DNA of 64,000 nucleotides from Boletus sp. NGJ (taxonomy: Eukaryota; Basidiomycota; Agaricomycetes; Boletales; Boletaceae). This document shows, piece by piece, positions 25,265-50,075 of this stretch. Every line of letters begins with the position of its first letter. Within the stretch, counting starts at the first letter, position 1. The position numbers were made by a program, and so were the translations under genes. Where the stretch lies: NCBI GenBank assembly GCA_019096195.1, contig JAGTXK010000178.1, forward strand, positions 62,001-126,000, read 5' to 3'. The notes under the pieces are model-generated. The model saw only the letters and a program-made list of their open reading frames with translations. It ran no database searches and was not told where the DNA came from.

Positions 25265-25496
25265 GATCGGGTCTGCCAACGGGCGGTCGTAGGGCGGGTT
25301 GGACTAGAATCTGCCGTTAATACTGAGACAAGATTAGCCTACACGGCAGTACCGCGGTGGAAGTCCACTGCGCGGTGATACCACCAGTGAGCCGAGGTGT
25401 GGCATAAAATTGGCCCATATGACGGATCGTGGTGATCGACAAATAGGCGACGTTCGACTAGCTTCCAGACAAAGATTCGTGTGTCATGCATGTCAC

Positions 25497-25560
25497 ATCG
25501 GGGGTACCGTGAACCTCTTATAAACCCCTTATAAACCCATTATATACTGCGCGTTTTGTG
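25497..25560 (+). repeat. Left terminal inverted repeat of the composite transposon
   Basis: Starts ATCGGGGGTACC, then TGAACCTCTTATAAACC, followed by a short direct repeat of CTTATAAACCC. It is inverted relative to 49,923-49,934. The first 12 bases are identical between the ends and the rest is degenerate. Confidence 0.6.
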
Positions 25561-27560
25561 TATTTTGCATAAAGTCATATAAGCCCTTAAAAAGGTAGGT
25601 CACATGCACAATCTGCGACCGATCAGACAATCTTGTCGCATGTGCAACACTATTGCACATATTGTAGATATTTGTCAGCCTGATTCGTACCGCAAACGGC
25701 CTGACCGCATACATGGGTTTATAACGGTAGGTTCGTTTGTCAGAAGTATATCTACAGTATGGCACTTGCCATGAGTCACCAATACCATTCCTGATCCCAA
25801 ACATAGTAAATCAATTTTTTTGGGGCACAGGACAATAAAAATTGTATTAGTACTCAACAAATGGCTATAATAGATAGCTTTGTTTATGCTGAAATGATGG
25901 AATAGCTTGGTGTGAAGCAACTTGTGTTAAGGTATTGATACAACATGGAATAGATGAATTCCCTGTGGATTTATATCTTAGTTTTGGGTATTGCCAGTGC
26001 TGGCAAAAGTTGGGCCTCCTGCTGATTTCTGGTTTGCTCATACTGGTTGAGGGCACACATATGGTTGATTCAGTTGCAAAATGTTAATTTCAATTAGACC
26101 ACTATCCACAATCCCAAGTTGTGCCTGCTGTTCTACTAGGTACCATGGGTGGTGCCCACCTGACCCTTTGTACTAGTGCCTGCTTGACCTCCCTCCACAG
26201 TACCCACCTGGTTACCCTCTGGAGTGCTTGCTGAGGTGTGGTCAGTGTGGCACCTTTTAAACGATGCTGCCACCGACAAATCAGTGGCTACTTCATTCGA
26301 GTGATCAACTAAAGCTATTCGTTCAAAGACCTGTCTTTGGACCTGTCAGACGAGTGATTAACTAATTTGAAAGACCACTTACCTGTTCCACAACAACAAC
26401 AGGTCATCTACAAACTTTTTCTCTTTGGGATCCTTGATATCTTTAAACCAATTGATGATATTCTTGTAGAATTGTGCATGATCAAATAGTCCATCCACAA
26501 GCCTCCATGAGCCACAGCTTGAGAGGGCAAACCATAGCTGCAACAGATGATGTCGAATCATGCCTGCAATGAAATGTCCAACATCCACCTGCACTGCTAC
26601 ATATGCAATGGCCCATGGGACCACTTTCTTCATCCCAAGCAGACCTGCTACATCAGTAAATACAGAATTTCATCATAGTGCTCATAGTGCCATACTGTAG
26701 TAGTTTTATAGTAGTCATAGTAGTTTCATAGATAACTCATAGTATTCATAGTGTCATAGTATTGAAAGTGTATTCATAGTATCCATAGTATATTCATAGT
26801 GTTCATAGTATCATAGTATCATAGTATCATGGTATTTCATAGTGTTCATAGTGTTCATAGTGTCATAGTACTGTATTGAAAGTGTATTCATAGTATTCAT
26901 AGCATCATAGTGTCATAGTACCATAGCACTCATAGTACATTCATAGTAGTCATAGTCATAGTAGTAATTTTAAGCTAATCCCAATCCCAATCCCAATCCT
27001 ATTTCTATTCCCAAGTCAAAAGTATACAAAAAGTGTAGGAAAGAGTGTAGTACAGTGTAGCAAAAATGCGCACCAAATGTAGCAAAAGTGTAGCAAACAA
27101 AGTGTAGCAGAGTGTAGTACAGTGTAGTAAACAAAGTGTACCAAAAGTGTAGACCTACACTAAAAAAAAATATCCAAGTCCATTTTCCCACACTCAGTAT
27201 TCAAAAAGCGGACATTGTTTGCCAATGTTCATGCCACCATTCTTATATAAACAAGCCAGACTTCAAAAACTTTCCCACACTCTTTTGTTTCTTGATTTTA
27301 TCCTTCCCTACTTATTACATGAAGTCAACACTTCACTTTGTAAATCATTAGGATTAGGATTGGCATTAGGATTAGGATTGAGACTGGGATTAGGATTAGG
27401 ATTAGGCTTAGAATTAGAATTAATATTTAATTGAATTTGAAATTAAATGGCTTGAAATTGCATTAGAATTAGGATTAGGATTAGGATTAGGATTAGGATT
27501 GCTAAGCCACTATGAAAGCACTATGTATACTATGGCATCACTATGACCACTATAGAAGTA

Positions 27561-29164
27561 CAGTGACCTCCAAAACTGTTGCAATGTCTAACCCTGATGT
27601 GGTGCGTGCAGCGCACCACAAACACCCGTGGGAATTACACTTCGCTTTGGTGGGAACAAACAAGGTACACACTCTTGGCTACAATCCGGCCTCTGGATGA
27701 TGTGATTTGGATCAGAGGCTGTGGAGTTATGTCTATTTCAAAACAGCAATACCATTGCAACAGTTTTGCACCTTTTAGTAGAGAATGTGCAATCTTGTTG
27801 AAATATCATCATAAGTGGCAATGTTTGGTTATACAAACAAAGATACACATACAAATATTTTGTCTGAGTTTGAAATAGTTCACACACTTCTTTATTTCCA
27901 ACCACATCATCATAAGATCCATCTCTTCTACTCAGAAAAACACCATTCTCTCTATGCTTGATGCTGGCCAGTCAGCTCATTCTATTGCTGCCACCACTGG
28001 TCTCCATGCTTCTACCATATCCAGGCTCCACTCCAAAGAGCGTTCTGAGCTTCAGAAGTCTGCTGGAGGTCGCCCATCCAAGCTTTCTCCTATCAATCTT
28101 CGTCATGCCATCCGTCTTATTTCATCTGGAAAGGCAGAAAATGCTGTCCAGGTGACCAAGGCTCTCACCAATGTGGTCAACCAACCCCTCTCTACCTCCA
28201 CAGTATGCACTGGCACTTGAGAAAAACTGGTATGAAGGCTGTGGTAAAGTCTAAACGCCCCCTTCTATCAGCTAGGCACCACAAGGCTCGCTTGGACTTT
28301 GCCTATGCTCATAAGGATTGGACTATAGAGGACTGGAAGAAGGTAGTATGGTCTGATGAGACTAAAATCAATCGCCTAGGGTCAGATGGGTGAAAATGGG
28401 GCTGGAAAAAAGCAGATGAAGGGCTTAATGATAGATTGGTTGAAGGGATCTTGAAGTTTGAAGGAGGTTCTCTCATGATGTGGGGGTGTATGACTTGGCA
28501 GGGAGTTGGCTATGCTACCAAGATTGATGGTAGGATGGATGGAGACCTTTACCTTCAGATTTTGAAGGATGAGCTGCTGAATACTCTGCAGTATTATGGT
28601 CTAGATCCTCCTAACGTGATCTTTCAGCAAGACAATGACCCCAAGCATACTTGCAAAAAGGTGAAAGAGTGGCTTGGAGAGCAGGAGTTTGGGACTATGA
28701 TATGGCCAGCACAGTCTCCTGACCTACAACCCCATTGAACACCTCTGGGGTCACCTCAAAAGAAGGCTAGCAGATCAAGAACAACCTCCTAGTGGAATTC
28801 ATGAGTTATGGGAGAGAGTTCAGGTGGAATGGGAGGGGATACCACTTGAGGAGTGTCAGAAGTTAATTGAAAGCATGCCTAGGAGGGTTGAGGCAGTGCT
28901 CAAGGCAAAAGGAAGGCTATACCAAGTACTAATACCCACTTCATATCAAGAGATGCAAAACTGTTGCAATGGTATTGCTGTTTTGAAATGGACATAACTC
29001 CACTGCCTCTGATCCAAATCACATGATCCAGAGGCCGGACTGTAGCCAAGAGTGTGTACCTTGTTTGTTCCCACCAAAGCGAAGTGTAAGTTCCCACGGG
29101 TGTTTGTGGTGCGCTGCGCGCACCACATCAGGGTTAGACATTGCAACAGTTTTGGAGGTCACTG
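27561..29164 (+). mobile_element. Tc1/mariner transposon 1 (inactive)
   Basis: 1,604 bp bounded by TA at 27,559-27,560 and 29,165-29,166. The ends are inverted repeats of about 210 bp starting CAGTGACCTCCAAAACTG. Each repeat is itself a partial palindrome: CCAAAACTGTTGCAATG at the outer edge recurs inverted at the inner edge. It interrupts MITE copy A; the uninterrupted site is seen in copy B near 49,110. Confidence 0.9.
27954..28930 (+). pseudogene. Tc1-type transposase, broken
   Basis: Reads as a Tc1 transposase: helix-turn-helix start (MLDAGQSAHSIAATTGLHAS, GGRPSKLSP), then LRKTGMKAVVKSKRPLLS, VVWSDETKINRLGSDG (first catalytic Asp), VIFQQDNDPKHTCKKVKEWL (second Asp) and NPIEHLWGHLKRRL (Glu). 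All three DDE residues are still present, but there is a frame change near 28,205, a TGA after GSDG (28,391) and one extra base near 28,731. It is therefore non-functional. Clear relative of the intact transposase at 36,133-37,149. Confidence 0.85.
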
Positions 29165-30527
29165 TACTATGAGCATACTATGAGACTACTATGAGACACT
29201 ATGAGAATACTGTGACCACTATGAAAGTACTATGAGAATACTATGACAGACTAAGGCCACACCATGAACAGACTATGAGACACTGTCATAGTACTATCAA
29301 ACCACTATCTAGTTGGACCCTCACTATGAGCACTATGTTACTATCCAGTACTGTCCAGCACTGGACAGCTAGTCCTGTTTTTACTGATGTACATGTGTGC
29401 AGGTGCATCTTTCTCCATGGTGGTGCTGCTTTGCTTGGCCGTTATAGACTACATCCAGATCCAATTCTTCATTGACAGAGCTTGGCGACATGAATATTAG
29501 TTTCAGCACCTGTTTTTTTTCAATGTCATGAGCCCAGGGAACATGTAATAAAAAATGAAAGAGTACCTTCACAAGTAGGCTTCCTTTGAACAAACCCTCA
29601 GCAGGGTTAGCTGGGTCATATTGGCAATTTTTATACAGGAAGTGTGGCCATGAGTTCGCTGTTATGAAGAATGAAGGGTCCCAATTCTTTATTTTGTCTC
29701 AGTGCCTGAAGGGATCTCAAGTACTCAGTCCCATAGCTTGAAAAGGATGGAATACACACTCAGCTTTATCCCAGTTAAATTCCACAGGACATGTCAATCT
29801 AGTAGTTGCATTATTATAGAGGCCACAGCCTATTTTATCATGGGCTGGGAGTCGGAAGTTGGCATCTGTTAGCCACATCACAATGGTGACTTTGAGCTGG
29901 CAAGCATTATCTGCTCCCTCAGATAGCTGGAGAGCATCATGATCAATGATCAAATTCACCCCCTCCCCTCCACTAAAAATAACTCACTTGCTTGATGACT
30001 TTGTCCAGTTGATCAATGTTGCTCTCATTCAGTACCTAACGTTGAAGATCTGGTATCCACTTCATTAATTTGATGTAAGCCTTGTAAAGACTGTCCTGCC
30101 TGTAGAAATGATTGTCAAGTTAGCTAGCGAAAGTTGGACCAGCCACTTAGGATCACTCACTGCTCACTATGCTGACGAATGCTCCCATCTAAGGCACCTT
30201 GTCGATCTGCCTCACTGATTATATCACTGAGATTGTCTGATAGGGACACTAGCCTTCTAAGAGCTCTTCCATGGTGACATCAGCTACTCACATGATGTCT
30301 AAGTGGAATCCATTACTTGTAGACCATTCACTTACTTACCTAACTGCAGTCCCTTGTGTCTGCACATCCAAGCATTGTAGCTTAGAAATCTGTTGTTGCA
30401 ACAATGCAATTTGAACTTGCAAAGCAGCATTTGAGGGGTCAGTGACCACTGGGACTGCCAGAGTGGATGTCACTTTAGAGATGGTGGCTTGTGTAGCCTG
30501 CACTATAAGGGCAGGGTCAGCTGCCAT

Positions 30528-31071: not shown

Positions 31072-31929
31072 ATGTGCCTCCATTGTCCTCATCTTCCACT
31101 TGAACTTGAATACAAAATATTTCTCTGGCTCCAAAATGAGCCTGATCTCTATCACTATACCCAGGTTGCAAAACGCATCCAAGTCTAATGAGCGTCATGG
31201 ACCATAGTCTATGGGGCGATCAACTAACTTCAGAGTAATAGGCTCCAACCTTACATATGCAACAACATTATGCTGCATGATCAATCAGAGGCACAGAGGT
31301 TTCTCAAATTTCTCTTGAACCACTTGAGCCCCAATGACTATAAGGTGACTGAGCTGTACATGGGTAGATCAATCAACATGAGCACTGTGGCTCTCATGTT
31401 GGCTAAATGCAAAAGGGTCACCAACTTGGTTATATGTTTTCTATACCATCATATTCTGTATGCAACCATGAACCCACTGCATCTTCCGCTATTGGAGTTG
31501 AAGGATTTAAAGGGCTTGTGCATTGGATTAACATCACATTATAGCAGGCGCCTGGTGTCCTTACCAGAGATGGAGGTCCTCAATCACATCACTCACCTCC
31601 ACCTGTTATCTTCAGGGGAAGCATCAACTTCCATGCCAATAGGTTTTGCAGGCCTGACAAACCTAACTCACCTGTTGATCAACTAGGTCACTGGGTGATC
31701 CTATACCCCCCAATTCTTGGACAAACCGACCAGTCTCATGCTCATCCAATGGATAGGTGAGACTCGCTCTCATTCCAATGTTGAGCAGAACCTCAGAGCC
31801 TGGGAGCTTGTGGATCGGTGTATTGTGGTGTTTGACAGATACCTCATGAAGTATCTTAATGCCAATGAAAGTATGTGGACATTCACACAACACATAGTTG
31901 AGTGGATAATTGATAACAAGAGTAAGTAG
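31072..31929 (+). pseudogene. F-box-like protein gene, decayed
   Basis: The start MCLHCPHLPLELEYKIFLWL, then YHYTQVAKRIQV, resembles an F-box-like motif (LPLELxxxIFxW, VAKRIQ). After a break, a 138-codon frame (31,270-31,686) has leucine-rich features (LYMGRSINMSTVALMLAKC, LPEMEVLNHITHLHLLSS, FAGLTNLTHLLIN). A last piece (31,717-31,929) includes LIQWIGETRS, VVFDRYLMKYL and WTFTQHIVEWI. In mushrooms such F-box proteins recruit substrates to SCF ubiquitin ligases. Frame changes and stops between the pieces make it non-functional. It lies divergently from the DUF6698 gene within the composite transposon. Confidence 0.55.
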
Positions 31930-32220
31930 ACTTATCATCCCTGAATTTGATTACCACTGACCAGATTTCAGTAGCTGACACCTTTGCAACTCCTGTGCCA
32001 AAGGAAAAGGTGCAGAGAAATGGAGAAAGCAGCAGCAATGAAGTAGTGGAAGAATAGATGGTCAGGCACAGATGGAGAGTGTGTCCTTGTGAGCAGTAAT
32101 AGAGTGGAGTGAGAACAAGAGACATACTATAATTCCAAGTCTCCATCACTTATAGAACATACCAGCAAAACTTGCAGATTGTTGTGAGCAGATAAGAGAA
32201 TGAAATGAAATGGAAACTGG

Positions 32221-32882
32221 ACACCTCAATGAGTCTTTAACCCCATTGTCACTTGATTCGCAGTGGTGATGGGGTGACTCAATGGATACAAAGTCCAAGA
32301 GTGCTCTTGGTGTGACACAAAGTCAGTCACTGAGAAGGGTTGAGTAGCACAAAGCCAGCTCAGAGGGGGAAAAATGGCATTGAGATGTAAACTTGATCTT
32401 TAATGAGCAAGGTGGCAGGCTGGGGGTTGGCAATAGGGCGCAATGGCAGGGGGGAGTGAAGGCAGTTCACGAGGCAGGTGGAGAGGCACAAGGTGTGAGG
32501 AGGGGTGTGGGAGTGCTAAAGTAATCTGGTAGTATGAACTTTGCATCTCGCATCCCATTGTGTTGAGTAATCTGCCAGCATAACCTTCAAGCTCACCCTC
32601 CACCCTCCTTCATCACACCCTCTTTCCCTTCCCTTCCCTCACCCTTCTCAAGCACCCCCCAGAGTCATCACTCAACAATGACCTCCTGTCAATCAAGTAA
32701 CTGGCACGCCCGCTGAGTACCTTGCAAGCTACCCTCTTCCGAGTTGGCTTTATGCTGCTCAATCCTTCTTGGTGACTGACTTTATGTCGCACTGAGAGCA
32801 CTCTTGGACTTTGTGTTCATTGAGTCACCCCTATCACCACTGCAGATTGAGTGACAGTGGAGTTAAAGACTCATTGGAGTGT
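32221..32882. mobile_element. MITE with about 150-bp terminal inverted repeats
   Basis: The left end (ACACCTCAATGAGTC, TTGTCACTTGATTC, CAAAGTCCAAGAGTGCTCT) is repeated inverted at the right end up to 32,882. The matching arms run about 140-150 bp. No coding capacity, and I did not find a clear target duplication. Confidence 0.75.
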
Positions 32883-33089
32883 TCTCTTGTTTCTTACCTT
32901 TCCATTTCTTACCCTTGCCTTTCATTTCAACATCCCTCCCTATCACCCTTGGTGATAAGCTGGTGGCATCCAGATTAAATGTTGGTATGTGCCCTGCTCC
33001 CCATTCTCTCACTGATCTCTAGTCTCTAGCCAGGGTTCTATTTCATAATGACCACAGTGCTCTCTCGTTTCAGGCCTCAATCCTGACCC

Positions 33090-35547
33090 TTGATCTGTGA
33101 GTCCTGCCACCTCACTTGTGCAGTTCAGCATGATGTTTACAGGGTACCCTTAGCTATGCTAATCTGTCTCAACATCAATGCTTTAGCCTGTCAGAGCAAT
33201 GGACTGATGGTATACACCTCACCCAACATGTTATTTGTTCCCGAGCCCCACAATGAGGAAGAGAAAGTCTGTGCCCAGGCAGACAGTCGTTTTGGAACCA
33301 TGGACTGTTTTCAGTGGCCCAAAATCTACTGCAGAGAATACGAATACGCTGTCCACATCGCTCAATGTGAACATCACCCTCACCCTGATTCTCTTGCATG
33401 GGCATGGTACATGGTCACCCCTGATGACTTTGAGCTTCTACTCACCACTGCATTTGCTGTTGGGAAATTGAAGCAAGAAAAGGCAGTGGGTGTTGTGTCA
33501 CTATCACACATTGCATCAAAACAATATGCCAAGTGGAAGAAGCACCATGGAGACAAGAAGGATATCATGGCAAAGTTGCTCCAGTCACTGTAGCACACTG
33601 TAATGGTGTTGCTACAACATCCCCTCACATTCCGTGATGCTATCACATTTGTCGCACAAGCTCAGCGGATGTTCCTTAACATATATATGTTTTTGAATTT
33701 TATGGAGGTCATGATGCCTTGCTCCTCCTTCCCCACCAATCCTCACTCTGTCTGTTCAGACTGGATGGGGTGTTTCACTCAAGACTCAACAGTTTGCAAC
33801 CAGCTATTCTGTGTGGGAGTCCCTGTGTGGCTTGTCCACCTCAATTTTACTATTACAGATCAAACCATCATCAAAAGGCCCATAACATTTACCTTCCCCG
33901 ATCACATCATCTGTGCCATATACTTCTATCATGGTGGTGGAGGACTGAGCTGGCATGTTTACTTGCACCAATATTATATGGGCCACACAAATCCTTCCCC
34001 AACCACCCTGCTGAGCTCCACACCGACTACCTCTAATGTTGGCAAGGCACCAACTCACACTCAGATCAGGAAAGCCGAGTAGAAGCACCACAATTGTCAG
34101 CAGCAAAGGCAATTCAATAAGTGGGATGATATTTCGCATACTAGTCCTCTGTGCTAAATCACTTTCAGGTGGTGGAACTGGTGGGCATAACAAGTGGGAG
34201 GAGCTGCATGTCCCTGAGATGCCCATACCTTTGCACATTTGGAAGAATGCAATAAAGCGGGTGGACAAGGACCTGGCTAGGGTGAAGTTGGGGTTGGTTG
34301 ACCAGGGTTATCATGTGCCTGAGCCTGCCCTCCTTATCACAGGCCAAACACCTGAACAATGTCAACTATATCTGACAAACTGACTCGCAGTTCAACCATA
34401 CTGGATCACCCAGCTTGAGCACTGCTCCCCCATCAATTCCCTGCACCACAGCTGTGGAGGGAATTCCTTCATAGCATGCCCCCTAAGGACAAGCTCAAGG
34501 CTGCAGTCTCGTCATCTGGTAATGTGAAGAATTTGAGGAAGTCCTGCAAGCTGGCAGCATATGAAATATTTGGTGAGGAAGGGGCAGCCTATACACAAAG
34601 TTCAAGCTGGGTGCCAGACACCAGGGTTGATTGGAGAGGAAAAGATATTCCCATCCCCTTCCTCATCAACCCTCTATCTCATTTGATCCATGCTGTATTG
34701 TAGGAGCTGTATGAGATTGGGTTCCACTACAAGCTTCATGCGCTCAACTAGGCCATGGTTCCCCACCTCTGGGTGAATTATCACACCAAGTGTGTTTTGT
34801 TACTTCATTGCATCTTTCTGGGCACTGCAGGTCTCATTATATGGTCTGAACCTGACAAAATACCACTAACTCCAGAAGGCATTCTGATTACTCGGACGTC
34901 CAGATAACACCTAGCAGGTGTCCGCCCTAGTCCAGATCTTCTGGAGTTGGTACTCTGAAATATTGATCCCAAAGCACTGTCATATCATTTAGCAGAATGC
35001 CGGTATTGGTGATACACTTTACTACATTTTCACTAGCTACATTTTCCCTGACACTTATTGAGGTATGAGTGTGCCTCATCCTATACTATATAAACCCCCA
35101 TTCCATTTGTGGCACCTCAGTTGCTCTAGCCTGTTCCGGCAGCAGCTGAGGTGAGTTATTTCATATCTAATGTTTCTCTCACTTACCTATCATCGCTCTG
35201 GTCTACTCTGATTTACACTAGCTCTGCCAACCTCCGGAACTCTGAGATTTCAGATTTTCTAACAGAACTGTTGCCAAAAAAGTTGGGGGACCTGGGGTTA
35301 ACAGATACTTTTGCTGACAACAAGGTTGTACTTTGAATCTTTTCTTTGCTCCTCGCTGCATGGCCTGATGCCCACCCTTCCCTTTCCACCTTCACTACTG
35401 CAATGGAACTTTACAAGGACAAAAATGACACCAAAGTCTACAAGGTGATGTCATGGGCATGTTTTTTCTATGTACAGACATTCTTCAACCATTTTGACAG
35501 ACCCCCCCTTCTCCTGCATGCCTTCCCTCTTGAATATCACGAGTAGT
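33090..35547 (+). pseudogene. Uncharacterised mushroom transposon-linked family gene, decayed
   Basis: Successive plus-strand fragments follow the order of a large expanded Agaricomycete family I remember only as hypothetical proteins. They are: MLFVPEPHNEEEKVCAQADS with LAWAWYMVTPDDFELLL and AVGVVSLSHIASKQYAKW; HPLTFRDAITFVAQAQRMFL with DWMGCFTQDSTVCNQLFCVG and VPVWLVHLNFTI; NKWEELHVPEMPIPLHIWKN with VPEPALLITGQTPEQCQLYL; KLAAYEIFGEE with SSWVPDTRVDWRGKDIP; DLGLTDTFADNK; and VMSWACFFYVQTFFNHF. The fragments are split by several stops and frame changes, so it is dead. No catalytic motif is visible and no function is known. It lies between the F-box-like gene and the Plavaka transposase gene on the same strand as both. 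Confidence 0.6.
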
Positions 35548-35901: not shown

Positions 35902-37500
35902 CAGTGGCTCAAAAAAGTGTCCCAATGTTTGGCTATTTTGCAAAGACTTGACATTTGCAAAAGAACCAAAAGGTATTAGCCCTAACCCTTGCTGGGCCAT
36001 TGATAGCCCTAATCCTTGCCCTGAAGATGAGCCCTTAGTCATATAATTTGGTTGTCATGGCACTGAGATATAGCCATATTAAAGTGACATGTCATTGGGA
36101 CACTTTTTTGAGCAACATTTCTATTCTTCAATTTAGTACTTTGTATGCCCTCCCTTTGCTTTTATCACTGCCTCTAGTCTTCTAGGCATACTCTCTATCA
36201 ATCCTTGACACTCCTCAACCTCTATCTTCCCCCACTCCACTTCAATTCTCTCCCAAAGCTCCCATACTCCTTTTGGTGGTGTTGTATAGCTATTGAGTTT
36301 TTTTTTGAGGATTTGCCAGAGATGTTCAATGGGATTAAGGTCTGGAGATTGTGCTGGCCAGTCAAGAAGCTTGATCCCTTGAGATTCCAGCCACTCCTTG
36401 GCTCTTTTAGAGGTGTGCTTGGGGTCATTATCTTGTTGAAAGATAATGCTCTCTTCAGGAATTCCAGAATTTTCCATGGAAGGAAGCAGATTATCCTCCA
36501 AAATGGAGACATACTGCTCAGCATTCATCCTCCCTTCAACCTCTGCAAGAATCCCCACTCCACTCCAACTCATGCATCCCCAAACCATCAAGGAACCTCC
36601 TCCAAACTTTACTGTTCCCTGAACTTCCTTGTCTTGCAAAGACTTTCCTGCCAATTTCCATACATACTTCCTTCCATCTGACCCAATCCTGTTGATCTTG
36701 GTTTCATCTGACCATATAACCCTAGTCCAGTCCTCCACAGTCCAATGTTGGTGCTTGAGAGCAAAGGCTAGCCTATGTTGCCTATGCTTCACAGACAAGA
36801 GTGGCTTCTTTTTCTTGACTACAGCCTTGAGAGATGCAGACTTGAGAACATTCCTAACAGTTTGAGCAGAGACAGGAGAAGAGAGAGCAGAATTGATGAG
36901 ATGGGTAGCCTGGACAGCATTTTCAACTTTGCCAGAGGTAATACTAGAGACAATTCTCCTTTTATCAGTAGGAGAAAGTTTAGAAGGACATCCTAATTTG
37001 ATGTTTTCCTTGCCTGGGTGGATCTCCTTGATAACCCTGGCCACAGTAGACTTCCCCAGACCAGTTTGGAATGATATTTGCCTAGTAGAAAGGCCAGATT
37101 CAGAGAGAGAAAGAATATTGGCTCTAGCAGAGGAGGGAGTGGATTTCATAATGAAGTAGGGTTGGCTGAATGGTATCTCTGCTCTTTATACCATTTGGAG
37201 TTATGTAAGTGACATAATCAGACAGGGTTGAAGCACAGCATCCATCAGAACCTTATGTTATTTACTAAATGATAGTTGATAATATCAGGGTCAAATAAGT
37301 GTCCCAATGACATATCCTTTTAATATGGCTATAACTCAGTACCATGACAACCAACTCACATGACTAAGGGCTCATCTTCAGGGCAAGGATTAGGGCTATC
37401 AATGGCCCAGCAAGGGTTAGGGCTAATGCCTTTTGGTTCTTTTGCAAATGTCAAGTCTTTGCAAAATAGTCAAACATTGGGACACTTTTTTGAGCCACTG
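35902..37500 (-). mobile_element. Tc1/mariner transposon 2, structurally complete
   Basis: 1,599 bp between TA dinucleotides (35,900-35,901 and 37,501-37,502). Inverted repeats of about 211 bp (35,902-36,112 and 37,290-37,500) begin CAGTGGCTCAAAAAAGTGTC. As in Tc1 transposon 1, each repeat is a partial palindrome: TCAAAAAAGTGTCCCAATG at the outer end recurs inverted at the inner end. CCCTAACCC, a telomere-like word, lies inside both repeats. It contains one uninterrupted transposase gene. Confidence 0.92.
36133..37149 (-). CDS. Tc1-type DD34E transposase
   Basis: An uninterrupted 338-residue frame from ATG 37,149. The N-terminal part has two helix-turn-helix-like segments (SESGLSTRQISFQTGLGKST; CPSKLSPTDKRRI). 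The catalytic core has VIWSDETKINRIGSDGRK (first Asp), GGSLMVWGCMSW, IIFQQDNDPKHTSKRAKEWL (second Asp) and SPDLNPIEHLWQ (Glu). Exactly 34 residues separate the second Asp from the Glu, the Tc1 pattern. It would cut and paste the surrounding element at TA sites. The frame starts and stops just inside the terminal repeats, with no intron. It looks capable of encoding a full-length enzyme, though activity cannot be judged from sequence. Confidence 0.93.
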   Translation of the reverse strand: MKSTPSSARANILSLSESGLSTRQISFQTGLGKSTVARVIKEIHPGKENIKLGCPSKLSPTDKRRIVSSITSGKVENAVQATHLINSALSSPVSAQTVRNVLKSASLKAVVKKKKPLLSVKHRQHRLAFALKHQHWTVEDWTRVIWSDETKINRIGSDGRKYVWKLAGKSLQDKEVQGTVKFGGGSLMVWGCMSWSGVGILAEVEGRMNAEQYVSILEDNLLPSMENSGIPEESIIFQQDNDPKHTSKRAKEWLESQGIKLLDWPAQSPDLNPIEHLWQILKKKLNSYTTPPKGVWELWERIEVEWGKIEVEECQGLIESMPRRLEAVIKAKGGHTKY

Positions 37501-40500
37501 TATGTTCCAGTGTGGAGAGAACTGCCCTCATACCTTCACTTCTCAGAGAGGACTCATGCAGCACTGATCTGCATGTGCAACCTATTGGTCAGACCATGCT
37601 CTGCGTCTTGCAAGGATGAGTACTACCTTTCACCGACCTGAAAAGTGGCCTAGATCTCCAAGTGAGGTGAGTAATGTGACAATATCCACATCTATCAAGT
37701 TGAGCTTATGGACTACAGCCCAATGTCCCATATGTCCAATGTCCAGTATACCAAGATGGAGTGTCTTCCTCCATAAATGCAACCCATCTTAAGAATTAGC
37801 CTGCACCTACCACCAATAACCCTCAAACCAATGCCTCAACCTTGTGCCAGCCTACCATCAGCAACCCCCATGCCCATGCCTCATTCTCACACAACCCACC
37901 AGGCCCGAGAGTCCACAGGATGCCAGCATGGTACTGGGATCAACTTCCAGAGCCGCCCATATCAGCACATGCTCCTCTAGCACCCCCCTCTACCATGTGC
38001 CACATGTTCCTTCATATATTCAACTTGTTCCACACTCAATTCAATCACTTTGGAATCACTCACGAATACCAGCACAGACCAACTCATGACCCAGATGCAT
38101 TCCTCTCCTTGGATGATCTAGCAAACTCAAAGCAAGACCCAACACCGAGCCACCAGCCACCATGCAAGTGAGTGAACTGCCTTGGCCGTGGGCCAACATG
38201 ACCATATGGCACCTAATGACATGGGTCTTAACTGGCAGCCATCAGAAGTCTGCTTCTGAGGTGACAAGGCTGGTGCATGACATCATTCAGGCCCTGGACT
38301 TTAGCACCAACAAGCTCACAGGCTTTGATGCTCATACTGAGACTTGCCATTTAGATGATGCCAAGCAACAAGAGCATGTAGACGACCCATTCAGTCAAGA
38401 CAATTGGAAATGCAGATCTGTGGATATCAAAATACCTACATGGGAGAAAAATCTTGCAGGAAATGGGAAAACGTTCACTATCAAAAGTTTTTATTATTGA
38501 TTATTATTTAATGTTATATATGCTGTATTTGCTGAAGCCTCATCGAAGTCATTTCATCTCACACCTTTTAAAAAGGTAGGATTACTGAATGTTGACTGAT
38601 GGTTTTATTTAACCCCATTCTCAAAGGTCTGGAGGTTGCCATGCACTGGTGAAGAACAGCAAGTGTACGATGAGCTCTACACCTCAAATGTGTAGAATAA
38701 TGCTCAAGATGAGATCATGAAGCAAAGAAGGTCGGACAGTTGCATATTAGAGAGGGTCATAGCCAGGATGATGCTGTGGTCTGACTCTACATGTTTGGCT
38801 GCATTCAGTCATGCATCCACATGGCCAGTTTATCTCTTATTTGAGTATTTGTCCAAATATGTATGCATGCCACTGGAAGGGCAAGCATGCCATCTGATCA
38901 CATTCATTCCCCATATAAGTGTCCATTAACTCATGCCCTGTTCCTAAGATCTTACTGCTGTTTCAGCTCTCTGAGTTCATACACAAATTTATATCAGATC
39001 TATCAAACACAAAGAACAATGCTGAGATGGTAACCCATTTCAAATGAGAACTTATGCATGCTGTGTGGAGGATCCTACTCAACGATGACTTCATTGAAGC
39101 TTACAAAGATGGAATTGTTGTCAAGTGCTTCGACAGCATAACCAGGCAGGTATATATCACTTACTCAGCCAACTATCCTGAGAAGCAAGCTGTATATCTT
39201 CTGGTGTATTTACATTATCTGACAGGCAATCAAGGGTTCTACTTGCTATGATTTGGGACAAAGGAATCTGCCCATGCCTGTGATGTTTAATTCTGAAGTC
39301 AAACTTCCACTGACTTAGGTTTCTGAGTGACTTATCAGCAAGGCTATCACGTGCTCATACTCATTTTCAGCAGAAGGTCCTTGTTGCCTGGTGGGCCATC
39401 TACGAGCTTGGCAAGCTCTTGAAAAGCCTAGTAGTGAAACATATATTGAAGGCTCATTCACTGGTACCCACAATAGTAAGTACCTCATCATAGATTTTGT
39501 ATAGAGAATCTTATGGGCAACCACTAGAATGCCTTTACTGAGTGTCTGTTGCATGTGGGGTTCAACATTTATCCAAGCCTCATGGTCGATGTATTGCATG
39601 AGTTTGATCTGGGGAACCTGAAGTCGTGCCTGCAACACATATTTAGAATCCTCTATAAGATTGATCCTGCTTGTATCAACATATGCAATCAGATGTTTGT
39701 ATATGAAATTATGTAAACCCAAAACTAACACCCTTTGGCATAGATTTGCTGCTGTTCCTCCATTTGGACTGGATACCATTTGCTGCTTCCCAGACAATGT
39801 CACCAATACTAGTCAGTGCCTAGTATGGTACTTTGAGGATGTCCTACAGGTGAGGATTACTTTATGCCTTCCATTCACAGCTAACATTAAGTGTAGTGTT
39901 CCATTCCCATTCTTGAAGGGTTACTGCCACCCATCCATGGGGATGTTGTGGAGACCCTCTTGTTCTGCCTGGCCGAATGGCAAGCATTGGCCAAACTGAG
40001 GCATCATATGGACAATAGCCTTGTACTCCTGCATCAGGTGCTGTGTTGGCTTGGTGCACAAGTGTGGAAATTTCAATATGTTACTAGCACTACATTTCAA
40101 ACCAAAGAACTACCACAAGAAACGGCTCGAAGGGTGAGAAGGGAACTTACTGACTTGCAGTTAGGTCATTAGGGGAAAGCTGTGTGGTCTGAATCAATAC
40201 CAAAGATGTTCAACATCAACACATACAAGTTCCATGCATTGGGGGACTATGGGAAGACCATCTGGTTGTTTGGGATGATAGACTCATATACAACTCAAGT
40301 GGTGGGTGCTCGTTGTATCTTGGATTCACACATAAGTTGATACACCATAGGGTGAACGAGCACACAAGCTGATCAAACAATTTTATGGTGCCTTAAACAA
40401 GAAAGAAGTAGAGGAGTAGTTTGCAAAGCAGGAGAGGCGAAAAACCCACATCATGTGCCAACTCAACCTGGAAAATCTTACACTTGAGGAACTTGAGGAA

Positions 40501-41470
40501 ACTGATCCCTCGCCACTGTTGCATCACACTATGGCTGACACACCAAGGGGAACATATTCAGCCTGCCCATGTTTCTTTTGAAGCACCAGAATGATCCAGC
40601 AATCAAGGTAAAGTGTTCAATTACATTATGATACTACATATTCTGATGTTGGGTATGGTGGGTAAGCCAGACTTTATGCAAGCCCTGAGGAATCATTTAT
40701 TGTCATGGTTGCTTGGCCTTGATTTTGACAGTGATGAGCAGATGTTCACCCCAGAACAGCATAACAATGTGCATCTTGTCAATACTGATGCAGTCGTAGA
40801 GTCTAAAATAATACATGTCAACTATACTACCTATGATGTCCGGCGGGACCATGATACAATACAGATGACCCATGGTGATGTCATGATGACACACTCAAGG
40901 GACGAGAAACACCCTTTCTGGTATGCTCAGCTTATTCACACCTTTCACATCAAGGTGCACTTCTATCCAGGAGGCATCAGTCAGTTGAAGCAGAATATGG
41001 AGGTACTCTGGGTCCATTGGTTTGGTATCAATATGGTTCATAGATGGGGCTTCAAAGAGGGCTGTCTGCCAAAGGTTGGGTATATGCTGGATTGTACTGA
41101 CCATGTACCATTTGGTTTCCTAGATCCATCACTTGTGATCTGTGGGTGCCATTTAATCCCCACCTTTGCTGAAGGCCACACATATGAACTTCTGTGGGTT
41201 GGAGAATCATTGGCAAGGCAACCTGGGAACATGGATGATTGGGCAGCTTTCTATGTCAACATGTGAGTATGATCTTCATGTTCCCTTTAATTAAGAGATA
41301 CTAAAAGAACTAGCTTCATAGACAGAGACATGTTTGCCTGATTCACAGGAATTGGAGTGGGCCACCTTGCTCCAAATATTACCAGCCTCCATGACCCTGC
41401 ACTGTTGATCAAAGATGTCAAGGAACCAGAGGACAATGATGTTGTAATGCAGGGGCTTGATGAAGGTCGG

Positions 41471-41951
41471 TGTTATAATATAGGAAATTTTCAAACTTTT
41501 CATACGCATACTTACTTTTCATTTTCTTCAACTTTCTTATTCATAAGTCACGTAACTGTGCACGTAACCGTGGGAACATATCACATGACAGGTCTAGAAC
41601 CATGACATCATATGACATCACATCTCATGTGATCCACGCATCTTTAATTTCCACTCTTCTCACATAGCCCTATTAATCTCCATCTTACTATATCTAGTAA
41701 TTTATCACACGCACTGCTTGGTCTGTGCACATTCTCCCTATGTATATAAAGTAGCACTTTGACAACTGGAATTCCCAGTCTAATCCATTTGTACTCTTCC
41801 TCCAATAACCTATTAGCTTTGGCCATCGGTCATCGTAGGGTTAGGAATAGTCAGGCCTAAGACTCCCCACCTGATTCGCTCAGCCAGGACTTGTGTAGCC
41901 TGCGAAGCACGTTTGAGCCTTGTGGATTGATTTCTGAAAGGGATCATAACA
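41471..41951 (+). repeat. 5' LTR of the Ty3/gypsy element
   Basis: Begins TGTTATAATATAGG and ends GGGATCATAACA. Contains a TATA-like TATATAAAGTAGC about two-thirds in. Preceded by the target-site copy GTCGG (41,466-41,470). Confidence 0.93.
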
Positions 41952-42561
41952 CTTGGATTAGACTGCTATACACAACGCTCGGACTCCAGAGCTAAGGAGA
42001 TATACACGGGCCCAGCATTTAAGGGACATCTCTAGTATTCACCACTTGACGGTGACAAGAAAAGCACTTGCCAAAATGCTTGAATATATGCTCGTCCGGT
42101 GTCATAAATAAGGATAACATTGCTGCCAGGCATAGTGCACTAGCCCCACTTCTTAGGTGGTTGCCAACTTAAGCGTACGCTGGTTCTACGATAGTGAACC
42201 CAGGTTCTCGTGATCACCTGTGACGTCACGAAGTAACGATAAGGGGATTTATCTCGACTTTCCCCCATGTTACACCTGCTCATAGTAAAGCAGTTATCCT
42301 CCAGTCCCCCATCACTGTTGCCCACCATTTTCAACGATCTTTATTCCGACTCTTACGAAGGAGTAGGGACCCCAGAACCCGATTGTAAGATATTGGGTAG
42401 TAAGGTCCTGAAAGAAGACTGACCAAGGAAAAGGAAAACTTACATCAGAAACTCCGATAAAAGCAGACCCCTTCACCCCTCCTCTGCATTTGCCCTCTAT
42501 CACATCACCTACTTTCGATCCTACCTTCACCCCAAATCCTTCTTGAAACCAAACCCCAGAT

Positions 42562-43692
42562 ATGTCTAGAATCGACATCGATGATCTGGTGCAGAAACTC
42601 GCCAACCTTACCCAGGAACGCAATAAAGACAATATCACAAAGAAAATCGCCAATCCCGGGAAATGGGATGGCACAAGGTCAACCTTCTGCCCATGGTGGA
42701 TTAAGCTCCGTCTCTGGGTCGATGCCCAGACATGGAAAAACAACAAGATCATGGACATTGCAGTCCTCTCATGCCTTGAGGGAAAGGCAGAAAGCTTTGC
42801 TCAGCTAATAATGGAGCACTATCTCGATGAAGAGGCGGTCATCGAGACGGACGCAAATGGAGTCATGCAGCCGGCAAAAGGAGCCAATGCATGGCCAACA
42901 TGGAACAGGTTGCAAGACCAAATAAAGACGCACTTTTGTATTGATACATTAGCACATGAGTCTCTGAGGAAACTCGAGACTTTAAAACAAAATGGTCACC
43001 CGATTGACCTGTTCCTACAAAAATTCAAGATATTGAGGAAAGAGTTGTACATCGACGACCACCACGCAGAAGTTCTACTGAAGAAGGCGGTAGACTTCAA
43101 AATCTATGAAAGGTCACAATTAAATAGTCCGGCTCGAAACTTTGATTACGAGGATCTGGTTATCAATTACAGAGTAATCAGAAGGGCGTTCGAACAGATG
43201 GTAGATGAACGTGGACTGCCCATCCGATCCCAACCTCCTCGATCATCATTTCCTCCTCCTCGTGGGCAGCCCCCACACAATTCTTATCGCCCTACCTATA
43301 TGGCAGTGGGCATGCAACCGGGTCGTGGTGCACCCATGGAAATAGGAGTCCAGCAGGCTGGACCTTTGAAAGAAACAAGGACCTGTTTCCAATGTGGCAA
43401 ACCCGGCCACATAAAACCAAACTGCCCCACGAATCCTTTCAAATGGACTGGTCACCCACCAATGCAGCAACAAATATGGGATTGGAACCAAGGCTCGTAC
43501 GTTGAGCAATCACAGGGAGAACACAAGTATCCCTCGTTTTTTAATGAACCCCAATCCCGTCAATACGCACAACGACCACTCCTGCAACCTCCCATAGCTA
43601 CAGCGGCACCAAATGTAGCAACAAGGGCATACGTTTCTGATGAGGCAGAAGCATATTACAGAGACAAATTTGAAGTGGAGGCCAAAGCCTGA
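42562..43692 (+). CDS. gag region of the Ty3/gypsy element
   Basis: Fossil element part. A 376-codon open frame with a retrotransposon gag-like core and one CCHC zinc knuckle (CFQCGKPGHIKPNC) near the C-terminal third, followed by a Gln/Pro-rich tail. It encodes the nucleocapsid/capsid precursor in this family. Confidence 0.85.
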   Translation: MSRIDIDDLVQKLANLTQERNKDNITKKIANPGKWDGTRSTFCPWWIKLRLWVDAQTWKNNKIMDIAVLSCLEGKAESFAQLIMEHYLDEEAVIETDANGVMQPAKGANAWPTWNRLQDQIKTHFCIDTLAHESLRKLETLKQNGHPIDLFLQKFKILRKELYIDDHHAEVLLKKAVDFKIYERSQLNSPARNFDYEDLVINYRVIRRAFEQMVDERGLPIRSQPPRSSFPPPRGQPPHNSYRPTYMAVGMQPGRGAPMEIGVQQAGPLKETRTCFQCGKPGHIKPNCPTNPFKWTGHPPMQQQIWDWNQGSYVEQSQGEHKYPSFFNEPQSRQYAQRPLLQPPIATAAPNVATRAYVSDEAEAYYRDKFEVEAKA

Positions 43693-43840
43693 GCTGCACA
43701 GGCTTTAAATGGACAGCGCCAATGAGTGAAGAGGGAACTCAGCGGCATGAACAATTTCTTTCTTCTTCTCTTACAACATATACAAGTAGCGACTTTCCTA
43801 TCTCAGATCTTTCTTCTGTCCTACATAATCTACAGTATCA

Positions 43841-46800
43841 ATGAAATCTGCAAGGGCGTCTCAATTGAGCGCGGCACCAGACTTAAGTGTACTTAATTCC
43901 CTCGTAAAACAACAAAAAATATTGCATATCTATAAATCCACAAAGGTTACATTGAACCAAACATCCACACTTTCCTATGGTGGAGAATTCTCACTTGAAA
44001 CCATAGTATCATGCAATGTCAATGGCCAGTGGTCATGTTACCGTTTCCAGTCCCTCCTGGATTCGGGAGCGTCGCATACCTTTATTGATCAGGACTACGT
44101 TAAACATCACAGAATTCCCTTTTATACTATTGATAACCCCATAAAGATACATAACGCTGACGATTCAGAAGGAGCTATTGGACCGATCCGTCATGCGGTA
44201 ACCCTGATAGTGGAAATCAAAGGACACTACGAAGTCATAGACACTTACATATCAAAGTTAGGAACCCATCGCATGATCATTGGTTATGATTGGTTGTATC
44301 GCCACAACCCTGACATCGATTGGGTGAAACAGACAATTACTTTTCCTCGCTGTACATCGTACTGTAAAATTATGGGCTTAGGACCCACTTCTTCTTACGA
44401 ACCAGTTCAACTTTGTACTATAGAAGAAGGACTCAAAGAAAAAGTCCCATTAACTTATCACAAATTTCTAGATGTCTTTTCGGAGAAAGAATCACAAAGA
44501 ATGCCTTTACGAAAACATTGGGATCACACAATCGATCTCAAAGAAGACTTCATCCCAAAGAAAGGACGTGTTATTCCTCTTTCGGACATTGAGATGGAAG
44601 AAGTCAGAACATTCATCGAAAAGGAAGTCAAAAAGGGTTATGTCAAACCCTCAAAATCTCTGCAAACATCTCCTGTCTTCTTTATTCCAAAAAAGGACGG
44701 CAAAAAACGAATGGTTATGAACTACCGATATTTAAATGAAGGAACCATCAAAAACTCCTATCCGCTCCCTCTTATCCCGCAGTTAATTGATCGACTCAAG
44801 AACATGGATTTATTTACAGCTATGGACCTTTGATGGGGATATAACAATGTCTGTATCAAAGAAGGCGACGAATGGAAAGCAGCCTTTGTCACCCCTATTG
44901 GAGCATATGAGCCTACTGTTATGTATTTCGGACTCACGAACTCTCCCCCCATGTTCCAAACTATGATGAACAACATATTTAATGACATGTATGCTGTAGT
45001 CGTCATCTACATTGACAACGTCATGATATTTACATCAAAAAAGACAAAAGAACAACACGAAGAAGTTGTGAAGGAAGTTCTACACCGCTTACGCGAGAAT
45101 GACCTTTATGTAAAACCAGAAAAGTGTACCTTCTTGGCAGAAAAAGTGGACTTTTTGGGAATGGTCATATCTAAAGAGGGGATAGAGATGCAGTTGAAGA
45201 AAGTAGCTGGGGTCATGGATTGGCTGGTTCCTACAAGACTAAAGCAACTCCAAGGCTTCCTTGGACTTTGTAATTATTATAGACAATTCATAGAAGGCTT
45301 CGCACAAATCGCCCAACCCTTGAACGATCTTACCAAGAAAGACGTTCCGTTCAAATGGGGTTCAGAACAACAAGAAGCATTCCCCAACTTAAAAAGAAAA
45401 TTTACAGAAGCACCACTTCTCGCATACCCAAACCACGATCAAGAAATGCGTGTGGAAACTGATGCTTCGGACATCGCCACAGGAGCAGTGCTCTCCACTT
45501 TATGTAATGATGGTAATTGGCGACCAGTTGCCTTTATCTCTCACTCCTTTGACAGCGCAGAACATAATTATCTGATTTACGACAAGGAACTACTTGCAGT
45601 AATTCGCGCCCTAGAAGATTGGCGCCACTATCTAATCGGTCGAGAAAGATTTGAAATCTGGACGGACCACAAGAACTTAGAATATTGGAAGAAGCCTCAA
45701 ATGCTGAGCGGATGTCAAGCACATTGGCATGCGCTTCTCCAAGAATTTAATTATTCCTTCGTATACAAACCTGGATCATCAAATGGAAGAGCTGATGCTC
45801 TATTCCAACGACCAGATCACGGCGATGCAGTTGTAGATCATAACCAAAACGTCACTGTTCTTCCTCCTTCTATTTTTATAAATCATATTTCTCTCTCTTC
45901 GAATCTTATGACAAAAATACAAAAAGAATCTAAAAAATATAACATAGACGCCATAAACAATTTCCTTTTCTATTCTGAACTTAATCTATTCAAAAATGAA
46001 AAAGATCAAATATTCGTCCCCGAACCATTACATACAGAAATCATTACTTTATGTCATGACTCGCCCATCGCAGGACACGGCGGTCATTCCAAAACCATAC
46101 ACACTCTTTCTTGATACTTCTTGTGGCCAGGAGTCACAAAAGATGTAAAAAATTATGTAGATCACTGCCAAGTGTGTGCCCTCATGAAGGGTAAGCAAAA
46201 TGCACCGGCAGGAAAAGTTATTCCTCTACCCACGGCAAAAAGACCATGGGAAGATTTATCGGTAGACTTTATCATAGGCCTACCTCCATCACAATCCTTT
46301 ATGGCTATTTGTGTTGTTGTGGACAGATTCTCTAAAGAAGTTATTTTCATACCTACTTACAATACATGTTCCTCGAAGGACCTTGCCATTTTATTTAGAG
46401 ACCATGTCTGGTCAACACATGGACTCCCTTCTACTCTCATATCAGATCGAGGACCACAGTTCGTTTCTGCTTTCACCCAAGAGCTTTGTAAGCTCCTTGG
46501 AATAAAACAAAAAATCTCTACGGCATACCATCCACAAACAGACGGACAAACCGAGTGCGTTAACAGAGATCTTGAACAGTATCTCCACACGTATGCTGGA
46601 AAGAAACAAAACGAATGGGTCGATTGGTTGAAGTTAGCCCAATTCTCTCACAATAATACCATTACCACGGCTACCGGAGAAATCCCTTTTAAAGTAACAC
46701 GAAACTACGTACCACATATGGGTTTCGAAGGGCACCTCACGGGATTTGCAGACGAAATTGGGCGTAACCATAAGGATATTGAAGAAGTGCTGGAAGCTAC

Positions 46801-47410
46801 ACAAGAGAGGATGATCACCTCTTCTGATAAAAAATGATCAACCGCACCAGAATATTCTATTGGTCAGCAAGTCTGGCTGTCCACAGATAAATTAAAACTT
46901 CTGTATACAGCAAAAAAGCTTACTCAAAAATGGATCGGTCCCTATACTATCACACAGATCCTTCCCAACACTGTAACACTCAAACTCCCGAATTCTGTTC
47001 ACATTCACCCAACTGTGAATATCTCTTGCATCAAACCATACAAGGATACGCTGCCAGGACAGCCTAAATTCCAACCTGACGCAATAGAGATTGACGAAGA
47101 AGGAGAAGAGCAGTTTGAAGTTGATTTCATTGCCGCTTCCAGGATGAAGAAAGGCAAACTAGAATATCTGGTCCACTGGAAGGGTTACGACGATACCGAT
47201 CGTACCTGGGAATCTGAAGAAATTCACATCACTGCACCAGAGGCAGTCAAAGATTTCCATCGTCTTAATCCTTCCGCACCACGCAAGCTTCGTGGTTTAT
47301 CCATTATCAGCATTCGCTTCCCTATTCTACTCCTTATGAAAACTTCACCGAAAATGAAAAAACAACGACTCACCTGGAATTCGAGTCTTAAAGAGGGGGT
47401 AGTGTTATAA
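43841..47410 (+). pseudogene. pol region of the Ty3/gypsy element (protease, RT, RNase H, integrase, chromodomain)
   Basis: Fossil element part, broken. In order: aspartic protease (LLDSGASHTFID, about 44,055), reverse transcriptase (palm motif variant YIDN, about 45,010), RNase H region (TDAS, about 45,460), integrase with zinc-binding and catalytic-core regions (about 46,060-46,840), and a C-terminal chromodomain (YLVHWKGYDDTDRTWE, about 47,165-47,215). The chromodomain places it among the chromoviruses, which target heterochromatin. About four breaks overall. Confidence 0.88.
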
Positions 47411-47894
47411 TATAGGAAATTTTCAAACTTCTCAAATACGCATCACTTACTTTTCATTTTCTTCAACTCTTCTTCTTCATATAGTCACGTGACTGTGCAC
47501 GTGACCGTGGGAACACATCACATGACAGGTCTAGAATCCATGACGTCATATGACATCACACCTCATGTGATCCACGCCTCTTTAATTTCCGCTCTTCTCA
47601 CACAGCCCTATTTAATCTCCGTCTTACCATACTCTAGTAGTTTATCACACGCACTGCCTGGTCCGTGCGCATTCCCTCCTATGTATATAAAGTAGCACTT
47701 TGACGACTGGAATCCCCAGTCTAATCCACTTGTACTCTTCCTCCAATAACCTATTAGCTTTGGCCATCGGTCATCGTAGGGTTAGGAATAGGCACGGCCT
47801 ACAGACTCCCCACCTGATTCGGTCAGCCAGGACTTGTGTAGCCTGCGAAGCACATTCGAGCCTTGTGGATTGGTTTCCGAAAGGGATCATAACA
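47403..47894 (+). repeat. 3' LTR of the Ty3/gypsy element
   Basis: Begins TGTTATAATATAGG and ends GGGATCATAACA, followed by the target-site copy GTCGG (47,895-47,899). It keeps more G and C than the 5' LTR at positions where the two differ. Confidence 0.93.
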
Positions 47895-48095
47895 GTCGGA
47901 CTAACGACCAGAACCATGAAGACTTTTTCAATGAGGAAGTCAGAGATGATGAGAATGGTGGTGACAAAGATGGTGAGGATGATGAGGAGACATGGAGCAA
48001 GGCAAGCAATGATCAGATGAGTGATGGAAACGAAGGGGATGAATGGTCAGTGAGTATAGTCAATTGTCACCTAAGCATATTCCTGACAACAAAGA

Positions 48096-49444
48096 TACCC
48101 CCCTTCTCTAGATGTAGGACTTGGTTGAAGATGAGGAGGTAGGGTCAGTGTAGTCAACCATCACACAGAGCATGTTTCTGGCTACATCAGTAAATACAGG
48201 ATTTCATCATAGTGCTCATAGTGCCATAGTAGTTTCATAGATAACCCATAGTATTCATAGTATCATAGTATTGAAAGTGTATTCATAGTATCCATAGTAT
48301 ATTCATAGTGTGTATAGTATCATAGTATCATAGTACCATAGCATTTCATAGTGTTCATAGTGTTCATAGTATATTCATAGTGTTCATAGTATCATAGTGT
48401 CATAATATCGTAGCATTTCATAGCATTCATAGTACATCCATAGTAGTCATAGTCATAGTAGTAATTTTAAGCTAATCCTAATCCTAATCCTAAATCAAAA
48501 TTATCCAAAAAGTGTAGTCAAAGGTGTAGTCAAATGTTGTACAAAAAGTGTAGGAAAGAGTGTAATACAGTGTAGCAAAAATGCGCACCAAATGTAGCAA
48601 AAGTGTAGCAAACAAAGTGTAGTAAAAAAAAAAGCAAACAAAAGTGTAGCAGAGTTTAGTACAGTGTAGCAAACAAAGTGTACCAAAAGTGTAGACCTAC
48701 ATTCAAAAAATATCTCAAGTCCATTTTCCCACACTCAGTGTTACAAAAGCGGACATTGTTTGCCAATGTTTGTGCCACCATTCTTATATAAACAAGTCAG
48801 ACCTCAAAAACTTTTCCACACTCTCTTGTTTCTTAATTTTATCCTTCTCTACTCATTACATGAAGTCAACACTTTACTTTGTAAATCATTAGAATTGGGA
48901 TAAGGACTGGGATTAAAACTGGGACTGGGATTAGGATTAGAAGATTAGGATTAAATTAGAATTAGAACTAGGATTAGAATTAGTAGAATTAATATTTGAT
49001 TGAATTTGAAATTAGAATTGGCTTGAAATTGGATCAGAATTAGAATGAGAATTAGAATTGCTAAGCCACTATGGAAGCACTATGTATACTATGACATCAC
49101 TATGACCACACTATGAGATACTATGGGAATACTATGACCACTATGAAAGTACTATGAGAATACTATGAGACACTGAGAATACTATGACAGACTATGGCCA
49201 CACTATGAACAGACTATGAGACACTGTCATAGTACTATCAAACCACTATCCAGTTGGACCCTCACTATGAGCATTATGTTACTGTCCAGTACTGTCCAGC
49301 ACTGGACAGTTAGTTCTGTTTTTACTGATGTACAAATACTATATGTATACCCCCCCTTTCTCTAGACATAGGACTTGGATGAGGACAAGGGGGTAGGGTT
49401 GGTGTGGTCAACTGTTACACAGAGCATCATAATGTTCCTGGCTA
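48096..49444. repeat. Pair of about 90-100-bp direct repeats flanking MITE copy B
   Basis: TACCCCCC, TCTCTAGA, TAGGACTTGG, GGTAGGGT, GTCAAC and CACAGAGCAT, then CTGGCTAC, occur in this order at 48,096-48,184 and again at 49,348-49,444. The first copy is broken at GGCTA by the MITE, and the bases after the MITE resemble the continuation of the second copy. So a tandem duplication existed first and the MITE inserted near its junction. Confidence 0.6.
48185..49330. mobile_element. Foldback/MITE element, copy B (uninterrupted)
   Basis: 1,146 bp, flanked by TA (48,183-48,184 and 49,331-49,332), with ends CATCAGTAAAT and TTTTTACTGATG. The same mirrored CATAGT/ACTATG and AATCCT/GGATTA arrays as copy A, in the same orientation, and closely similar throughout. 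It shows the empty site at which Tc1 transposon 1 entered copy A. No coding capacity. Confidence 0.85.
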
Positions 49445-50075
49445 CAATCTATAATATACATCTTCTCTTGGTCACCATTGGCACAGTGAGTGTTGACATT
49501 GTAACTGGGGATTGGATGAAGTGAGGTTGGCCAGGGTCATAGACAGGTGTTCCTCAACCCAGGTAAAGTAAAATAACTTGCATTTTTGGACATATTAGGG
49601 GGGGATGTATATGTGTACTGCCATGTGGAAGTAATAGATGGGTTTGCACATATGTCACACTAGCACACAAAATGTATTTGTTTGGAAGTCCTTATATACC
49701 AATGTAACTACATTTTACTTGTGAGCAGATGAATCATTAGATGTGAATATGATAAGGTCCTAGATGGTCTTACAAGGTCCTTATAAGATTGCAAATTGTT
49801 TTCGCTAATTATGAAGATTTCTCGTGTGCTCGCTTGAATTATAGGGCCTTGCAATCGCTTGCGATCAGTTGGCAATATGTGGCATACGCATGTGAGACTC
49901 CTAGTCTATATAGGGGACTCATGGTACCCCCGATGCATGTGTGAGCGTATGTGAGCCACGAGGAGGTATAAAGTCCCGAACAGTAATGGTGATGCTATTG
50001 ATACATTCTAATCGCGTTTCGGACACTTGGTAGTAAGTAAGTACTGATGGTATACAGAATCAACAAGTAGTGTGT
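49445..50075. other. Right end of the transposon island and adjoining intergenic DNA
   Basis: No gene recognised. The composite transposon ends at 49,934; beyond it the base composition becomes host-like. From 49,935 to 50,075 lies the 3' flank of the alpha/beta hydrolase gene. Confidence 0.5.
49875..49934 (-). repeat. Right terminal inverted repeat of the composite transposon
   Basis: Ends GGTACCCCCGAT. Read on the minus strand it continues TGAGTCCCCTATATAGAC and CTCACATGC, resembling the left end after its perfect 12-base core. Confidence 0.6.

Follow-up and report, generated by a model that had tools for sequence, protein, structure and literature searches.

A probable PlavakaB-like, multi-gene DNA transposon, degenerate and enlarged by later insertions

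Plavaka elements and other gene-carrying transposons

Plavaka elements, together with KDZ elements, have been termed understudied (PMC8290104). PlavakaB elements have CATCA..TGATG ends and target duplications of 2–3 bp (PMC12730594, section 3.2.2), and Plavaka families have been reported from the mushroom Marasmius oreades (PMC8290104, PMC9674265). The transposon library of that species reaches ~42 kb, a maximum given for the library with the family unspecified, and long elements therefore do occur (PMC8290104, PMC9674265). In the red alga Chondrus crispus, enlarged families of the related EnSpm/CACTA superfamily hold 4–5 ORFs instead of 1–2 and measure 16–20 kb (PMC6431247). Extra genes are also carried by the Starship giant transposons of fungi, whose captain is a tyrosine recombinase (PMC13066641).

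We analyzed a 64-kb stretch of Boletus sp. NGJ DNA, hereafter the window, in which a sequence-only reading had proposed a giant 24-kb transposon with cargo genes. We consider it probable that the region holds one Plavaka-type, PlavakaB-like, multi-gene DNA transposon, which measured ~11.9 kb at arrival, was later invaded and is now degenerate; we regard it as an example from a known family that has received little study, not as an element of a new type. It shares with PlavakaB elements the Plavaka domain, the CATC..GATG ends, a candidate 2-bp duplication and the presence of genes besides the transposase, but differs in yielding no TET/JBP match, in having DUF6698 and other genes instead, in being a broken copy, and in the fifth base of its ends, which is G (CATCG) rather than the published A (CATCA), so that 4 of the 5 published end bases match (PMC12730594). 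This last difference counts against the assignment. The ends found here, CATCG..CGATG, are not the TGT..ACA ends described for PlavakaA (PMC12730594).

Like the M. oreades families, the locus represents Plavaka elements in a mushroom genome, and its gene families by themselves suggest a mushroom-forming host. It resembles the C. crispus families in its superfamily relationship and its number of ORFs, but their size is their own, whereas about half of the length here consists of later insertions (PMC6431247). With Starships it has in common the extra genes in a fungal element, but its transposase is of the Plavaka type (PMC13066641). Pfam scans of 48 ORF pieces from the CpG-poor island described below (E thresholds of 1, 1, 1, 0.01 and 0.1, with shorter pieces partly covered) gave 0 matches to tyrosine-recombinase, TET/JBP or F-box families, although a strongly decayed Starship captain could escape such scans.

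Terminal repeats and transposase

The proposed perfect 12-bp inverted ends at 25,497 and 49,934 were borne out: ATCGGGGGTACC has just 2 exact matches in the window, in inverted orientation, at 25497–25508 and 49923–49934. One further matching base per side gives the 13-bp repeat CATCGGGGGTACC, located at 25496–25508 on the plus strand and 49923–49935 on the minus strand, and over 17 bp the two ends are identical at 16 positions, with a single G versus A difference following CC. Directly outside both repeats lies CA (25494–25495 and 49936–49937), possibly the 2-bp target duplication of the element, for which the chance of a match is 1 in 16. That the element is known from one copy, within the window, counts against the PlavakaB-like reading.

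Inverted 13-mers are common in the window (752 exact pairs, many from known repeats), so the length of the end repeat by itself is no proof. In a control with random 600-bp segments from the window (400 pairs drawn, of which 36 were skipped because their members lay within 3 kb of each other), 13 bp was reached by 2 of 364 pairs. The identity and position of the repeat are more distinctive. Of the inverted 13-mer pairs, 694 are separated by more than 1 kb, and among these the CATCGGGGGTACC pair is the only one starting with CATC, a criterion picked after the published PlavakaB ends had been read rather than before the repeat was seen, and it is also the only pair linking 24000–27000 with 48500–51500. 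Farther inside, the local similarity score of the two ends is reached by 165 of 500 shuffles and so does not stand out. The subterminal regions share 7 inverted and 7 direct 8-mers (shuffled mean 1.7, maximum 7, 200 shuffles), and with equal numbers in the two orientations an orientation signal is absent.

A Plavaka-type transposase between the ends, also part of the earlier claim, was confirmed by Pfam. The gene (PF18759) spans 38117–41470 on the plus strand and contains in-frame stops, one frame having 3 (two TGA and one TAG) and a different frame a fourth, TGA. Its best single piece, 38696–38926, matches the profile at 9.1e-6 and 25.6 bits, slightly below the Pfam cut-off of 26.3, and the match above the cut-off was obtained on a typed read-through string in which the stops were bridged (1.2e-14, 54.8 bits, profile positions 81–318 of 325). 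Possession of the PF18759 domain is what places an element in Plavaka in PMC8290104, and by this measure the locus belongs there. A further hallmark of Plavaka transposases is a pair of motifs, C(2)C and H(3–4)H, between the second D and the last E. Together, the CATCG..CGATG ends, the CA flanks and the transposase fit what would be expected of a PlavakaB-like element differing by one base.

An acidic stretch at 47900–48049 on the plus strand is in frame with 41342–41470 across an intervening LTR element. It has no Pfam match and is assigned by frame and position only, as the likely C-terminal tail of the transposase. Because the transposase has stops and its likely tail is split off, the copy is probably now immobile by its own enzyme. 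Pattern searches with the C-terminal piece of the Plavaka protein gave 0 matches in a viral collection and 6 in prokaryote genomes, 0 of them confirmed; as these collections include no fungi, the negative outcomes carry little weight.

Nested insertions and companion genes

Nested element 1 (26651–29389, plus strand) is non-autonomous, has CATCAGTAAA..TTTACTGATG ends and a TA duplication, and itself holds a Tc1-like element (27561–29164, plus strand) with ~220-bp inverted repeats, a TA duplication and a broken transposase with weak DDE_3 and HTH Pfam matches. Nested element 2 (48185–49330, plus strand) has the same ends and a TA duplication, and is 90.8% identical to nested element 1 over 1,059 aligned bases when the Tc1-like part is left out. 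Both (2 of 2) thus have the CATCA..TGATG ends and 2–3 bp duplication of the published PlavakaB type, and smaller relatives of the same superfamily therefore appear to have jumped in. The two form a direct-repeat pair, at 26.6 and 48.2 kb, but we rejected their reading as long terminal repeats, since either copy possesses inverted ends and a TA duplication of its own. Nested element 2 is flanked by a ~100-bp unit, 78% alike, at 48095–48186 and 49347–49446, perhaps an intron or a repeated bit of the tail of the transposase.

A second Tc1-like element (35902–37500, minus strand) has 212-bp inverted repeats, a TA duplication and an open transposase frame of 350 codons at 36136–37185 (DDE_3, 3.5e-19). 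Its CpG observed/expected ratio is 0.00, yet the frame is open, and its lack of CpG may therefore be original rather than the result of decay. The chromo-domain LTR element (41471–47894, plus strand) encodes gag, protease, RT, RNase H, integrase and Chromo Pfam domains; its LTRs (~41471–41951 and 47403–47894) are ~92% alike, in a comparison whose stretches overran the ends by up to 9 bp, and it is flanked by a GTCGG duplication (41466–41470 and 47895–47899). It sits inside an open frame, which resumes beyond it as the acidic stretch. A probable inverted-repeat element at ~32221–32882, with repeats 86.7% alike, has no established target duplication and may thus be native to the larger element.

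Counting duplications once, nested insertions make up 12,581 of the 24,440 bp, including the less certain 32221–32882, which agrees with the earlier estimate that six later insertions explain about half of the length. The remaining 11,859 bp suggest an original size of ~11.9 kb. A single Plavaka-type element with these ends is thus retained from the proposal of a giant 24-kb transposon; the giant size is not, being mostly due to later insertions.

Of the companion genes, that for DUF6698 (PF20414; 26382–29983, minus strand) is split by nested element 1 into pieces at 29720–29983, 29384–29698 and 26382–26669, which match separately at 5e-6, 2.6e-11 and 8.5e-17 and as a joined string at 2.6e-44, in agreement with the earlier reading. 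Its frame carries on across the empty site of nested element 1. Nested element 1 and the LTR element each lie within a frame that resumes beyond them, so the frames of DUF6698 and, likely, the transposase are older than these insertions. A comparison of DUF6698 with solved structures gave 0 matches up to E = 10, and two of its pieces gave 15 and 80 pattern matches, 0 confirmed, in viral and prokaryote collections without fungi. DUF6698 is not mentioned in the literature searched, which leaves out most subscription journals, and among the matches listed from that literature none describes a Plavaka element with DUF6698.

Two further remnants inside the element lack a confident Pfam match. One, at 31228–31926 on the plus strand (open pieces 31228–31683 and 31699–31926), is leucine-rich-looking; it had been called F-box-like, an identity we dropped since no F-box family matched in the 48 pieces and this remnant gave solely a sub-threshold MyTH4 match. 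The other, ORF X, comprises pieces of one or more uncharacterized genes at 33087–35543 on the plus strand (open pieces 33087–33590, 34015–34380, 34419–34700 and 35337–35543), and its pieces run together have no Pfam match. Outside the element, the left neighbor is a DUF4419 frame on the minus strand (23527–24840, 2.6e-109), and the right neighboring frame, 50589–51131, has no Pfam match.

Taking as established the ends, the matching CA, the domains, the nesting, and the greater age of the DUF6698 and likely transposase frames relative to two insertions, we propose the following history. A Plavaka-type (PlavakaB-like, CACTA/EnSpm-related) transposon of ~11.9 kb would have inserted next to the DUF4419 gene, its transposase cutting and joining at the CATCGGGGGTACC ends and leaving the 2-bp CA duplication, by analogy with the family. 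Its original content would have been the transposase, the DUF6698 gene and one or two uncharacterized genes, all DNA between the ends presumably moving as a single unit. Later arrivals would have been the chromo-domain LTR element, both Tc1-like elements, nested elements 1 and 2 with their PlavakaB-type ends, and probably the inverted-repeat element. CpG-directed mutation, perhaps through cytosine methylation or a RIP-like process, may then have stripped most CpG and contributed to the breakdown of the transposase, so that a relic was left. What the companion genes may have done in this history would be conjecture.

Composition of the island and alternative readings

A two-state dinucleotide model that ignores repeats called, blind, one long island (25736–49822) and one short one (62568–63172) in the window. 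The long island begins 240 bp and stops 113 bp inside the inverted ends. Between the ends the CpG observed/expected ratio is 0.31, compared to 1.05 and 1.01 in the flanks; by part it is 0.13 for the DUF6698 and leucine-rich part, 0.19 for ORF X, 0.15 for the Plavaka part, 0.36 and 0.28 for the end parts, and 0.73 for the LTR element. The core parts also show elevated TpG and CpA, which together with the low CpG is consistent with CpG-directed C-to-T change. In Ganoderma sinense, methylated cytosines are reported to be mostly in CpG, with methylation higher in transposons than in genes and with RIP-like change favoring CpG (PMC4457147).

The ends had been said to lie exactly where host-like sequence becomes AT-rich and CpG-poor. 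This holds insofar as the CpG-poor island lies just inside the ends and the left GC drop is close (change point 25404 or 25518 depending on the range, intervals 25375–25532 and 25375–25540), but not as an exact coincidence: the right GC change point, 50092, is outside the element, its longer-range interval (50061–50378) leaves out the end, and the outermost margins retain CpG (ratio 1.16 for 25496–25735 and 0.84 for 49823–49935), with 0 CpG just inside them in 25736–26000 and 1 in 49333–49822. Composition is therefore no marker of the exact ends. The margins may have been unmethylated, or the true boundary may possibly lie elsewhere than at the repeat.

Could the inverted pair be a coincidence, with Plavaka just one of the unrelated transposons heaped up in a silenced, AT-rich island? 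The 752 inverted pairs, the 2 of 364 random segment pairs reaching 13 bp and the CpG-retaining margins speak for this, but the pair at both borders is the sole one of 694 to start with CATC, has matching CA flanks and lies next to a Plavaka transposase, for whose lineage CATC ends have been published (PMC12730594); we regard coincidence as very improbable. Less remote, although still unlikely, is that the pair marks true Plavaka ends and that the block of DUF6698, leucine-rich remnant and ORF X is separate, consisting of other transposons or host genes that entered the same silenced island or became caught in it. Nothing within the 29.4–35.9 kb stretch itself ties it to the transposase, other insertions occurred there, as the inverted-repeat element at 32.2–32.9 kb shows, and an insertion with undetected ends would give the same picture. 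However, searches around the block yielded no additional end pair or duplication, and the block has lost CpG to the same degree as the transposase part.

A variant of the PlavakaB-like reading differs from it solely in the purpose of the genes: the ends bound one Plavaka element, and the companions belong to the family as permanent accessory genes, acting in transposition or escape from silencing, rather than being captured host cargo. To this we give a little less than an even chance. The companion genes are as low in CpG as the transposase part, PlavakaB and other fungal transposons of these lineages carry TET/JBP genes thought to counter silencing (PMC12730594), and the enlarged red algal EnSpm families have 4–5 ORFs (PMC6431247); against it stand the single copy, in which recurrence of the genes does not show, and the 0 TET/JBP matches among the 48 ORF pieces. 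The low CpG shared with the transposase part and the greater age of DUF6698 than nested element 1 support co-residence of the companion genes with the transposase, but calling them captured cargo goes beyond the data, as they could equally be such accessory genes. More specifically, a distinct CATCG-ended Plavaka branch might regularly carry a multi-gene module in which DUF6698 is not encoded by a host gene but serves the transposon, either in its movement or in countering silencing; we think this somewhat unlikely. On that reading, a large share of the DUF6698 family would be carried by transposons. If other copies share the ends and genes, the PlavakaB-like element described here would supply element boundaries, a candidate accessory family in DUF6698 and a relative insertion order; as it stands, one decayed copy supports no claim of active gene movement.

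Elsewhere in the window, the short CpG-poor stretch at 62568–63172 is bracketed by inverted 77-bp repeats, 93.5% alike, at 62417–63250, which is probably another small transposon. Related tandem 135-bp repeats occur at 1–1407 (minus strand), where they encode TPR repeats, and at 20161–22812 (plus strand), with a CHAT domain at 22027–22812; we take these to be TPR/CHAT-type genes. Two adjacent and related MBOAT_2-domain genes lie at 14541–15755 and 16292–17507, followed by a third, inverted stretch related to them at 17771–18314.
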